In this document: positions 3,945 through 19,604 of the stretch, one piece after another
Layout: each line of letters opens with the position of its first letter
Numbering within the stretch: the stretch's first letter is position 1
Assembly (NCBI RefSeq): GCF_019204025.1
Contig: NZ_JAGSPB010000001.1
Span: 186,001 to 250,000, forward strand
DNA from: Erythrobacter ani
Lineage (GTDB): Bacteria; Pseudomonadota; Alphaproteobacteria; Sphingomonadales; Sphingomonadaceae
Direction: 5' to 3'
DNA: 64,000 nucleotides
Made by a program: the position numbers and the translations under genes
The notes under the pieces: generated by a model
Told to the model about the DNA's origin: nothing
Databases searched by the model: none
What the model saw: only the letters and a program-made list of their open reading frames with translations

Positions 3945-5144
<1,200 letters not shown>

Positions 5145-5153
5145 TTATCCACA
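5145..5153 (+). promoter_or_regulatory. DnaA-box sequence TTATCCACA upstream of ccrM
   Basis: TTATCCACA matches the consensus TTATNCACA exactly and lies 31 bases upstream of the chosen ccrM start. DnaA acts as a transcription factor for cell-cycle genes in Caulobacter, so a site here is plausible, but one isolated 9-mer can occur by chance. Confidence 0.45.
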
Positions 5154-5157
5154 GGGT

Positions 5158-5320
5158 GAGTCCATCGGGACTCCCCGTCAAGCAAAGATTCTGGAGGCTT
5201 ATGGTTAATGCACCGTAAAGCACGTCGTGCTTCACACGGAACGAAAGGTGACCGCCACAAGATGTTGAGTCCCTGAACAAATTGGGGACTCGATATGGAG
5301 GGGTGTGTTCGCGAAGACTC
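5158..5320. promoter_or_regulatory. Cluster of six GANTC (CcrM target) sites in the ccrM upstream region
   Basis: By reading the bases I find GAGTC at 5158, GACTC at 5169, GATTC at 5187, GAGTC at 5267, GACTC at 5287 and GACTC at 5316. That is six palindromic CcrM sites in 163 bases, where a random sequence would carry about one per 256. They lie entirely in the non-coding gap between ccrM and the exchanger gene. Methylation-state control of ccrM transcription, probably with GcrA, is the obvious inference. Confidence 0.7.
5201..5219 (-). promoter_or_regulatory. CtrA-like binding site upstream of ccrM
   Basis: On the minus strand the sequence reads TTTACGGTGCATTAACCAT. It contains TTAACCAT, an exact CtrA half-site of the type described in Caulobacter, and fits TTAA-N7-TTAA with one mismatch (TTTA). 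It lies about 87 bases upstream of the chosen start codon. CtrA activates ccrM in Caulobacter, so the position makes sense, but binding is inferred. Confidence 0.55.
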
Positions 5321-5331
5321 GGTGGCGGTAT

Positions 5332-6255
5332 TTAATTGAAGACGAGCACCACATTAGCGGCGAACGCGGCAACGAGGCCCGCTCCGAGAAGCCGCCCAAT
5401 TACCTTCCCGCGCCATAGCAGCCCGAGCAGCAAAAGCGCACTCCCGGTCAGCAGCGTCATCTGCAGGCCGACCAGCTCAATTGGCAACGCGAAGGGCGCG
5501 ATGCTCATCGTCGCCCCTCCGATCAACAGGATGTTGTAGATGTTCGAGCCGACCACATTGCCAAGCGCAAGGCCTGGCTTTCCGCGCAGCGCCGCTGCGA
5601 TCGAGGCTGCGAGTTCGGGCAAGGACGTGCCGACTGCAACCACCGTCAGACCGATCACCGTCTCCGGCACCTTGAAGATCGTCGCCAGCGAAATCGCTCC
5701 GGTAACCAGCGCATTACCGCCAGCGATCAGAATGCCGAGGCCGACGAGGAACAGCAGGACCGCGATCACCGTGTTGGAGGGGCCGTCCGTGTCTTCCTCC
5801 TCGATCTGAGCGGCGCCGGGGTGGCGATAACGCCAGACAATGTATACCAAGATGCCCACAAGCAGAGCGATCCCGATCCAACGCTCACCCCATTGCGACC
5901 AGACAAGCGCCCAAAGCAGCAGCGTCGCACCAAGCGCCACAACCGCGTCTCGCCTGCCGGTGCCGGTCAACACGATCGGCATGACCAAAGCGGAGACGCC
6001 AAGGATCAGGAGAGTGTTCGCTAGGTTCGATCCGACGATATTGCCCCATGCAATCTCCGGCGATCCGGCAAGAGCAGCCTGCACGCTCGCAACCATTTCC
6101 GGCATCGAGGTGGCGAAACCGACAATGACAAGACCGGTAAACAACGTCGAGACGCCCAGTTTCTGTGCGATACCCACCGCCCCGCGCACCAGCAGCTCAC
6201 CGCCAATGGCAAGGCCGACCAGTCCGGCTAGGCTCAGGAGAATCGCATTCAGCAT
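5332..6255 (-). CDS. Calcium/sodium antiporter (YrbG-like, CaCA superfamily)
   Basis: This 307-residue inner-membrane protein is built from two homologous halves of about five helices each, as in Na+/Ca2+ exchangers. The first alpha-repeat contains GFATSMPEM (about 47-55) and GNIVGSNLANTLLILG (about 71-86). The second contains VAVGTSLPEL and GNVVGSNIYNILLIGG. The acidic residues within these repeats coordinate the transported cation. A short acidic loop (QIEEEDTDGPS) joins the halves. The gene sits between ccrM and rnhB on the same strand but is separated from ccrM by the 200-base regulatory gap, so it is likely an independent unit. Cation specificity cannot be told from sequence. Confidence 0.9.
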   Translation of the reverse strand: MLNAILLSLAGLVGLAIGGELLVRGAVGIAQKLGVSTLFTGLVIVGFATSMPEMVASVQAALAGSPEIAWGNIVGSNLANTLLILGVSALVMPIVLTGTGRRDAVVALGATLLLWALVWSQWGERWIGIALLVGILVYIVWRYRHPGAAQIEEEDTDGPSNTVIAVLLFLVGLGILIAGGNALVTGAISLATIFKVPETVIGLTVVAVGTSLPELAASIAAALRGKPGLALGNVVGSNIYNILLIGGATMSIAPFALPIELVGLQMTLLTGSALLLLGLLWRGKVIGRLLGAGLVAAFAANVVLVFN

Positions 6256-17399: not shown

Positions 17400-19604
17400 C
17401 TAGCTCAGCTCGAGTTGGGTAAATTTGGGTACGCTCATCGCCCCCAAGAGCAGCTTCTCCATTGGATAAGCACCCGATCCCAAGGCTGCGAGCGGCATTC
17501 CTGCTTCGGCGAGCACATAAGGAGAAATCCGATTGCGCGTGACCAGGCCGTTATATCCATCGCTGACCAGCGGTACTTCAAATTCTACGCCCTGAGTTCC
17601 ATCCTCGGAATGAATGACTTTGCTGACCACCAGCTGACCGCCGCCAAGATCGAGAACAACTTCCTCACCCTGTGGAACCCCCGCAAGACCTTCGATCCGC
17701 GCACCGGTCTTCGACAGGTTACGCAGCATGACGTCGTAGTAGTGATCTTCATGGATCAGCCCGATCTTGCGGAAAACGGTCATGCGATCGGCCCGATAGC
17801 GCGGCGGGCCGTTTGGCCGGAAAACGAGATTTCCGTTTTCGAGGCGTTCGAGAACCTGTTCGTGGGTCAGAGGCCGTGAGTAAATGTAGCCTTGGACGAA
17901 GTCCGCTCCCCGGTCTTTCACAAGTTTCAGCTCGTCCATCGCCTCCACTCCTTCGGCAACGGTTTCCATTTCGAGCGATTTTGCGAGCGAAACGATGGCG
18001 GTGATGATGGCCGGATTGGTGTCACCACCCTCGGTGCATCCATGAACGAAGCTCTGGTCGATCTTGATCTTGTCGAAGGGCGCGCGCTTCAGATAGCCAA
18101 GCGAGGAATACCCCGTTCCGAAATCATCCATCGCCATGCGCACGCCCAACCGTTTGAGCGAAGCGAAGGTCTTGTCGACATGTTCGACATCGCCGACAAA
18201 GACGCTTTCCGTGATCTCCAGCTCAAGCCGCGCGGGGGGCAATTCGCTCGCAGCCAGCGCTGAGGCTACGCTCTTGCGGAAGTCGCTCGACATGAACTGC
18301 TTGGCTGATACGTTCACCGCTACGCGCGCGTCGCCTGGCCATCGGGCCGCATCCATGCAGGCCTGCCGCAAGGCCCAATCGCCAAGCTTGATGATGAGGT
18401 CGGTCTGTTCAGCGATCGGTATGAAAAGGCTCGGCGAGATCGGCCCTTCGTCGGGATGCTGCCAGCGCATCAGTGCTTCGAAGCTCTTCACTGTATCGCT
18501 CTTCGGATCAACCAGAGGTTGATAATTGAGCGTCAGCTCGCCGCGATGCAGCGCATCACGCAGGCCTTCTTCAATTCGCACACCGCGCGATGCGTCGTCC
18601 TTTAGATCGGCGGTATAAAAACGGAATGCCCCCTTCCCGCTCTCCTTGGCCGCGTACAGCGCAAGGTCGGCGGCGGCGTGGATTTCATCGACATCGACTC
18701 CATCATAGGGGGCTATTGCGATTCCGACCGACGTCCCGATCTGCGCGCGCCGCCCATTGATCGAATAAGGTTGAGACAGCATCTGGATTATGCGGCGTGA
18801 CAGCTCGCCAAGCTCGTTGCGATCATCCATGTCCGGCAAGAGGATCTGAAATTCATCGCCGCCCATGCGGCCCACTTCGCCGCGATCCTTGATCAGGGCC
18901 TGAAGACGCTGCGCCACCTGTTTGAGCAACTCATCGCCTGCCGGATGACCCAGAGTATCGTTCACCTGCTTGAACCGATCGAGATCGAGCATCAGCAACG
19001 CGCACGAACGCCCTGATGTCTTGAAAGAGTTCAGCATGGTCGACAATTTGTGGCCAATGCGCCGGCGGTTGGCGAGACCGGTCAGCTCGTCATACTGCGA
19101 TTGCTTGGCGATGCTTTGCTGATGGCGAAATTCGCTCGTGATATCCGTTGCAACTCCGCGATATCCGATGAGGCCGCCGACCCGATCCATTTTCGGGCGG
19201 GCCGTGATGCGCCACCAATAATGCTTGGACGGGTCGTCCCTGCCAGCTTCGTTCAGATTGATCTCGACAATCTGGTGGTCGATCTTGCCGTTAGCCTTCA
19301 TTCGCAATTTTATCGAACGGCCGGAATATTCTCCCGCTTCGATCGAAGCTTCGGTGAAGACAGAGGACAGCTGCTGGCCAATGAGGCTCTCACCCCCATC
19401 ACCCAAGGAGTCCAGCGCTTGCGTTGAAAGGTAGGAAAGCTCGCCCTTCTTGTTGGTCGCCCAAAAGAGTCCGATTCCGACATCCTCGATATCGCGTAGC
19501 ACATCGGTGCGGCGCGGAGGCGAGTTGGATTCTTCCGCCGCTTGCTGGTTCTCGGCTTCCTCTTTCCAGCCGCGACTCATTCGATTGAGCAATCCGAATG
19601 CCAA
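17400..19604 (-). CDS. PAS-GGDEF-EAL-PilZ cyclic-di-GMP signalling protein
   Basis: The 734-residue cytoplasmic protein has four domains: PAS (about 38-160), GGDEF (about 170-335; RMGGDEF with GGDEF at 248-252), EAL (about 350-600) and PilZ-like (about 620-715). The EAL domain keeps FEALMRW, LEITESV, DDFGTGYSSLGYLK and AEGVE, so phosphodiesterase activity is likely. The GGDEF signature is intact, but there is no RxxD inhibitory site just upstream. The C-terminal segment, with YRADR and NLSKTGARIEG, fits a PilZ c-di-GMP receptor. The start is a TTG at 19604 with GGGGA seven bases upstream; ATG 19580 is the alternative. No membrane segment is seen. Confidence 0.9.
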   Translation of the reverse strand: MAFGLLNRMSRGWKEEAENQQAAEESNSPPRRTDVLRDIEDVGIGLFWATNKKGELSYLSTQALDSLGDGGESLIGQQLSSVFTEASIEAGEYSGRSIKLRMKANGKIDHQIVEINLNEAGRDDPSKHYWWRITARPKMDRVGGLIGYRGVATDITSEFRHQQSIAKQSQYDELTGLANRRRIGHKLSTMLNSFKTSGRSCALLMLDLDRFKQVNDTLGHPAGDELLKQVAQRLQALIKDRGEVGRMGGDEFQILLPDMDDRNELGELSRRIIQMLSQPYSINGRRAQIGTSVGIAIAPYDGVDVDEIHAAADLALYAAKESGKGAFRFYTADLKDDASRGVRIEEGLRDALHRGELTLNYQPLVDPKSDTVKSFEALMRWQHPDEGPISPSLFIPIAEQTDLIIKLGDWALRQACMDAARWPGDARVAVNVSAKQFMSSDFRKSVASALAASELPPARLELEITESVFVGDVEHVDKTFASLKRLGVRMAMDDFGTGYSSLGYLKRAPFDKIKIDQSFVHGCTEGGDTNPAIITAIVSLAKSLEMETVAEGVEAMDELKLVKDRGADFVQGYIYSRPLTHEQVLERLENGNLVFRPNGPPRYRADRMTVFRKIGLIHEDHYYDVMLRNLSKTGARIEGLAGVPQGEEVVLDLGGGQLVVSKVIHSEDGTQGVEFEVPLVSDGYNGLVTRNRISPYVLAEAGMPLAALGSGAYPMEKLLLGAMSVPKFTQLELS

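Follow-up and report, generated by a model that had tools for sequence, protein, structure and literature searches.

The GANTC sites of the Caulobacter ccrM promoter and the restriction of its transcription to hemimethylated DNA are reportedly the subject of original work from the 1990s. In Caulobacter, GANTC is located in the ccrM promoter and transcription proceeds from hemimethylated DNA only, and shut-off of ccrM by methylation is given in the review and model text of the same source (PMC2217572, excerpts). That CcrM sites precede the ccrM gene of Caulobacter is also recorded in excerpts of PMC8865702. Caulobacter promoters carrying GANTC between the -35 and -10 elements are activated at 40-60 min, and in ctrA P1 the site is positioned at -28/-29 (PMC4287350, excerpts). 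The extended GcrA motif YGAKTCK was not confirmed for Brevundimonas (PMC7987155). NrdR binds box pairs with a 14-17 bp spacer, which places roughly three helical turns between the boxes, and spacers of 24-27 bp are also reported (PMC12051234, excerpts); the key conserved GC base pairs in its binding are positions 9 and 18, and overlap of its boxes with the site of RNA polymerase is frequent (PMC9110341, excerpts). A comparative study counted GANTC before ctrA, not ccrM (PMC8116508, excerpts). A scan of cell-cycle gene promoters for GANTC included ccrM, with no ccrM conclusion in its section 8, and the same work predicted DnaA control of ccrM for some alphaproteobacteria without CtrA sites there (PMC2877005, excerpts).

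In the window (the whole stretch of Erythrobacter ani DNA that was analyzed, 64,000 nucleotides), the ccrM product matched the Pfam domains N6_N4_Mtase and RAMA and, over near full length, the NCBIfam CcrM model with 600 bits, under the 830-bit cut-off. Its best solved relative was CcrM 6pbd (2e-152), and the mechanical open reading frame offers GTG 5129 as an alternative start. The preliminary description had listed six GANTC sites at 5158, 5169, 5187, 5267, 5287, and 5316, all non-coding, and all were found exactly there; they are non-coding because they are located between the ccrM start and the stop of the exchanger gene at 5332. The features of the locus are as follows.

3945-5114, minus strand: ccrM coding sequence; the product is an N6 adenine methyltransferase that includes a RAMA domain, and GTG 5114 is adopted as start from alignment with relatives
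5115-5331, minus strand: ccrM intergenic regulatory region, 217 bp, from the ccrM start to the stop of the upstream same-strand gene
5145-5153, plus strand: DnaA box TTATCCACA, perfect to what we take to be its consensus; overlaps the -10 element and the predicted transcription start
5153-5158, minus strand: predicted -10 element CACCCT (CANNNT), at 17-bp spacing
5158-5162, no strand: GANTC site 6, at about -17 (+19 from TTGAC) and in contact with the predicted -10 element (sequence comparison)
5169-5173, no strand: GANTC site 5, +8 from TTGAC, about -28 (sequence comparison)
5177-5181, minus strand: predicted -35 element TTGAC, present upstream in 81/81 loci (window and best 80 of 589)
5187-5191, no strand: GANTC site 4, with the boxes on one side and the core on the other (sequence, alignment)
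5205-5219, minus strand: CtrA-like site TTTA-N7-TTAA, one mismatch to TTAA-N7-TTAA, which we take to be the consensus
5255-5270, minus strand: NrdR-like box 2, gene sense ACTCAACATCTTGTGG (nrdA-trained matrix)
5267-5271, no strand: GANTC site 3, which forms the inner arm of NrdR-like box 2 (sequence and nrdA-trained matrix)
5287-5291, no strand: GANTC site 2, inner (3') arm of NrdR-like box 1 (sequence and nrdA-trained matrix)
5288-5303, minus strand: NrdR-like box 1, reading CCCCTCCATATCGAGT in gene sense, with a 3' arm that belongs to GANTC site 2 (nrdA-trained matrix)
5316-5320, no strand: GANTC site 1, the most distal; CGAGTCT on the minus strand
5332-6255, minus strand: sodium/calcium exchanger family gene upstream of ccrM, on the same strand (PF01699)

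The density of the sites, initially put at about nine times the random rate, was measured as 9.7 times the uniform expectation. GANTC was strongly depleted in the window (87 occurrences versus a mean of 345 in dinucleotide shuffles), so that the local enrichment of the six-site cluster (163 bp) reached 30 times the window's own rate. The Poisson P for the cluster was about 8e-8 per window position and about 3e-5 over the whole window, and positions 5130-5331 (202 bp) held at most two occurrences of any of the 15 remaining palindromic NN-N-NN pentamer classes. A GANTC count over 38 stretches and the window, corresponding to 824 kb or 26% of the genome, ranked the cluster as the densest and as the sole 163-bp span with 6 sites, the runners-up being five spans with 4 GANTC each. 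No second copy of the ccrM upstream region was found elsewhere in the genome. Further GANTC accumulations were observed at other loci. A GGDEF-EAL gene (17400-19604, minus strand) with weak PAS matches below cut-off carries a second cluster of the window at its 5' end, five sites in about 171 bp (19408-19578), and four GANTC packed into 37 bp (L099:12320-12356) precede an aspartyl-protease-like gene by about 135 bp. The hand-picked nrdAB locus carries five GANTC in about 80 bp before nrdB (L087:801-877) and many more before nrdA (upstream of L087:4055), where one NrdR box contains GATTC.

Conservation within the order was analyzed in 81 loci, namely, the window and the best 80 of 589 relatives found, the record titles of these 80 being almost all of Sphingomonadales genera or families and two unspecific. 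The GANTC cluster before ccrM was kept in 80/80 of these best relatives of the 589, with 3-10 GANTC per 270 bp, and one relative with just 205 bp of upstream sequence available had 5. Together with the window, the ccrM upstream region of the best 80 of 589 was strictly the densest of its locus in 76 of the 80 full-length cases, with 4 ties. An alignment of 25 sequences and the locus logos showed fixed GANTC positions and poorly conserved letters between them, and the distal block of GANTC, 28-31 bp, GANTC, about 20 bp, and GANTC was intact in 54/81 loci (window and best 80 of 589). In the order-level set, two more strings are conserved, GcCACACCcC between site 1 and box 1 and TTTCGTTC after box 2 (window positions 5230-5316).

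In the class Alphaproteobacteria, 142 genomes were searched and 117 gave a ccrM match, of which 90 were used, the own genome and 89 others; the 27 left out had weaker, fragmentary, or paralogous matches. Among the 89, G012 belongs to the same family as the window and the remaining 88 to different ones. The mean number of GANTC in the 300 bp before ccrM was 3.30, compared to 0.56 in neighboring windows, and the ccrM upstream region was strictly the densest window of its locus in 55/89 genomes. At least three sites were present in 57/89 and none in 13/89. Selection for GANTC at the ccrM promoter is well supported by these sequence comparisons, because the sites are kept in relatives (best 80 of 589), recur class-wide, and hold fixed positions in a sigma70-like core.

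This core contains two of the six GANTC in the arrangement TTGAC-N3-GANTC-N6-GANTC-ANNNT. TTGAC occurred upstream of ccrM in 73/89 class loci, and GANTC followed it at exactly 19 bp in 65/81 order-level loci (best 80 of 589 and window) and 35/89 class loci, and at +7 to +10 in 63/81 and 48/89, respectively. The background gave one TTGAC-N14-GANTC per 1.06 Mb and one per 0.51 Mb of strand sequence, from which 0.0003-0.0007 +19 cores are expected per region. The hexamer at 17-bp spacing was CANNNT in all 35 class loci with a +19 site and in 35 of the 65 order-level loci with one (best 80 of 589 and window). TTGAC is thus read as the -35 element, the GANTC as lying at about -28 and -17, and CANNNT as the -10 element, with transcription predicted to start at about 5145. 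A standard sigma70 and terminator scan of the region returned no match, and the proposed -10 element is weak. An exact genome search for CCACNNGATNTTGNG gave the ccrM site and one other, and the reversed control gave 2 matches; the +8 GANTC alone is not specific, because TTGACNNNGANTC gave 10 matches over the genome versus 5 for its control. An identical TTGAC-N3-GANTC-N6-GANTC core is located 50 bp before the ATG of ftsK (L241:18845-18895, C1:838845, plus strand); apart from these two, the 837 kb of own sequence held no +19 core. Of the single cluster put forward at the outset, the sites themselves stand, whereas their loose grouping gave way to a division between a core promoter and an NrdR-type box pair.

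The sequence around sites 2 and 3 resembles paired NrdR boxes as judged by what we take to be the NrdR consensus. A matrix was trained on nrdA upstream regions only, with the own genome excluded; of 29 genomes searched for nrdA, 28 had a match, with L236-L238 unused, and 16/27 loci were picked by the same presumed consensus, the criterion being a best pair 31-34 bp apart with at least 21/32 consensus matches. The locus test covered 72/81 loci (at least 6 kb) and the partner test 80/81 (window and best 80 of 589). The ccrM upstream region held the best matrix pair of its locus in 70/72 (from the window and best 80 of 589), with a mean pair score of 20.7 against a background mean of -2.9 and a 99.9th percentile of 13.9, and across 832 kb of own sequence nothing but the promoters of nrdA and ccrM came within one unit of the ccrM score. 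Retraining on 12 pairs, with GANTC-bearing boxes dropped, still gave 70/72 in the same selection (window and best 80 of 589), compared to a mean of 9.1/72 and a maximum of 49/72, reached by one matrix, for 40 column-permuted matrices. With GANTC masked, the ccrM pair was top in 15/72 only, because the box arms are GANTC. At wrong spacings, ccrM still came first in 44-64/72 loci, because box 2 alone is strong; box 1 is degenerate. Since this single-box signal carries the wrong spacings, pairing was tested separately: when the search for a partner (17-60 bp, either side) was anchored at the best box, the top-scoring one was located at 31-33 bp in 71/80 loci (best 80 of 589 set).

Boxes 1 and 2 are 33 bp apart from start to start, corresponding to a 17-bp spacer, which agrees with the published 14-17 bp. 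Positions 9 and 18 of PMC9110341, which by our mapping correspond to positions 4 and 13 of a box, are retained as C4 and G13 in both boxes (CCCC..GAGT and ACTC..GTGG) and fall on the outer C or G of the inner-arm GANTC, so that the methylated adenines are near neighbors of the key NrdR pairs. GANTC overlapped at least one box in 76/77 scored order-level loci and both in 53 (from the best 80 of 589); among nrdA promoters it overlapped one box in 6/24 scored. The ccrM pair shares with NrdR-box promoters of ribonucleotide reductase genes the paired 16-bp boxes, the 17-bp spacer, C4 and G13, and recognition by the nrdA-trained matrix. In contrast to them, the target here is a DNA methyltransferase, the inner arms are CcrM sites, and the predicted boxes (5255-5303) are located upstream of the predicted core, about 110-158 bp before the predicted start, and do not overlap it. 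Overlap with the polymerase site is no strict criterion, because the source says "often" (PMC9110341, excerpts).

In the own genome, nrdR was found at C3:111147-111587 (TIGR00244, over cut-off), and NrdR was found in 121/142 class genomes. A strong single NrdR box preceded ccrM in 23/89 class genomes, compared to 13/950 other windows. The pair was the best of its locus in 48/89 and outscored shuffles in 36 genomes at the 0.05 level and in 22 at the 0.005 level; among the distances listed, at least 22/89 had the best partner 31-33 bp away. At least three GANTC, a TTGAC-GANTC core at either offset, and a box pair occurred together in 26/89 class genomes, and 21/89 had none of the three. On this evidence, a promoter layout packed with CcrM sites, often with NrdR-like boxes, recurs widely over the class. 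The presence of NrdR and of the box pair were not significantly associated in the class genomes (35/82 versus 1/7, P 0.23), a comparison that is underpowered. Outside Sphingomonadales, GANTC overlapped a box in 11/22 strong cases, which by our estimate is about what site density alone would give, and GANTC within the boxes was not supported as a class-wide rule.

The 8-mer TTATCCAC was present before ccrM in 51/81 loci (53 copies; window and best 80 of 589) and had 2 copies elsewhere in 521 kb of the same loci, and the DnaA 9-mer occurred 33 times at 28-30 bp from TTGAC in the order-level set (best 80 of 589 and window). The CtrA-like site was patchy in relatives when the alignment was inspected by eye.

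For comparison with the Caulobacter family, 40 genomes were searched and loci were obtained from 30. The nearest genome encodes a CcrM 97% identical to the 6pbd chain, whose organism we take to be Caulobacter, and the family is presumably named accordingly. Its ccrM leader lacks TTGAC and has only two adjacent GANTC near the start, GACTC-at-GATTC; the remark in the preliminary description that the Caulobacter leader holds fewer GANTC was borne out, with two in this genome versus six here. Neither a TTGAC-GANTC core at either offset nor a strong single NrdR box before ccrM was found in any of the 30 family genomes, and at least three GANTC before ccrM were present in 4/30. Pair scores exceeded the local 99th percentile (6.3) in 2/30, at 7.0 in the near-Caulobacter genome, where the boxes are poor, and at 10.9 in another. 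Like the promoter described here, the CtrA-activated ccrM promoter of Caulobacter crescentus carries CcrM sites; it differs in that the 30 family genomes are without the TTGAC-GANTC core and the strong single NrdR box.

Our favored reading, held with moderate confidence, is that ccrM has a composite promoter under autoregulation, of which the cluster is the part that shows, and that this promoter is gated by its own methylation and probably also by NrdR. The preliminary description had suggested methylation feedback on ccrM, which is plausible as far as the sequence goes and fits the well-supported selection for GANTC, with fixed sites in a sigma70-like core. Replication would leave the promoter GANTC hemimethylated and thereby permit ccrM transcription, and accumulated CcrM would re-methylate its own promoter and close it, as reported for Caulobacter. 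Repression of ccrM by full methylation is put forward tentatively, at somewhat less than even confidence. NrdR, DNA-bound at high dATP, would act as a second brake on ccrM, and CcrM would therefore be made during DNA synthesis. In Sphingomonadales, methylation could tune NrdR directly, because the methylated adenines are close to key NrdR-binding base pairs; that NrdR itself is the methylation reader is nevertheless held to be rather unlikely. A broader proposal, in which ccrM would be a core member of the NrdR regulon over much of the Alphaproteobacteria, the NrdR of Sphingomonadales would read methylation, and the CtrA-driven promoter of Caulobacter would be a derived exception, is speculative and doubtful.

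Positive feedback through GcrA, in which the methylated spacer GANTC would recruit GcrA and sigma70-RNAP, CcrM would activate itself, and the NrdR-like boxes would be incidental, is an unlikely alternative in spite of several points in common. The gene gcrA is present in the own genome, the predicted sites at +8 and +19 both fall between -35 and -10, as in the class activated at 40-60 min in Caulobacter, and the -28/-29 site of ctrA P1 resembles the -28 site here, likewise in a sigma70-type promoter (PMC4287350, excerpts). Unlike ctrA P1 and other GcrA/CcrM promoters, ccrM has two spacer sites, and its core sites GGAGTCC and TGAGTCC do not fit YGAKTCK, which among the six is matched by site 1 alone (5316, outside the core). 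The +19 core occurred in 8/19 class genomes without a PF07750 match versus 27/70 with one (Fisher P 0.80), and at least three GANTC in 12/19 versus 45/70. GcrA is not clearly the methylation reader, because the core is equally common without detectable GcrA, and as an obligatory reader it is weakened and no more, because PF07750 may miss diverged copies. The nrdA-like box pair is left unexplained by GcrA-activated feedback. The GcrA Pfam model also matched in the control Sulfolobus acidocaldarius, an archaeon.

The boxes might instead be sites of another palindrome-binding factor, or of NrdR alone, with GANTC as mere box letters and methylation irrelevant, which is considered improbable. The middle base was nearly fixed at sites 1-3 (52/54 each in the intact-block loci of the window and best 80 of 589, with G at aligned site 1), and the constraint there therefore exceeds GANTC. 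Sites outside the fixed positions nevertheless used all four middle bases (C83 G77 T34 A32), the core -28 site varied as G30 C24 A3 and the core -17 site as C54 T7 A4, and the clusters persisted without a pair passing P 0.05, in 26 of the 57 class genomes with at least three GANTC. Chance or neutral clustering in AT-richer intergenic DNA, combined with recent common ancestry, could draw on the over-representation of GANTC in intergenic DNA of Alphaproteobacteria (PMC3973325, excerpts). It is nonetheless given almost no weight and is already contradicted by conservation; GANTC positions fixed amid otherwise poorly conserved sequence, class-wide recurrence, the Poisson P, and the top rank in the own-genome sample all speak against it.

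Detailed ccrM control was found in the literature mainly for Caulobacter. An Acinetobacter methyltransferase study mentions nrdR merely as a neighbor of methyltransferase genes (PMC10483419, excerpts), and excerpts of PMC12176259 cite that the NrdR of Acinetobacter may contact an adenine methyltransferase. In the main text of a large NrdR regulon survey, ccrM, methyltransferase, and methylation are absent (PMC5343134). The link between NrdR and the ccrM promoter may thus be new, barring a database entry such as RegPrecise. A promoter architecture found widely elsewhere in the class is missing from the 30 Caulobacter-family genomes, and the model family looks like an exception to the class-wide layout. 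Candidate methylation readers at the ccrM promoter are NrdR or direct effects at the -10 region. If NrdR were the reader, CcrM sites in both NrdR boxes would form a direct AND-gate of dNTP level and chromosome methylation, and the composite promoter names a testable link between nucleotide supply, through NrdR, and cell-cycle methylation.
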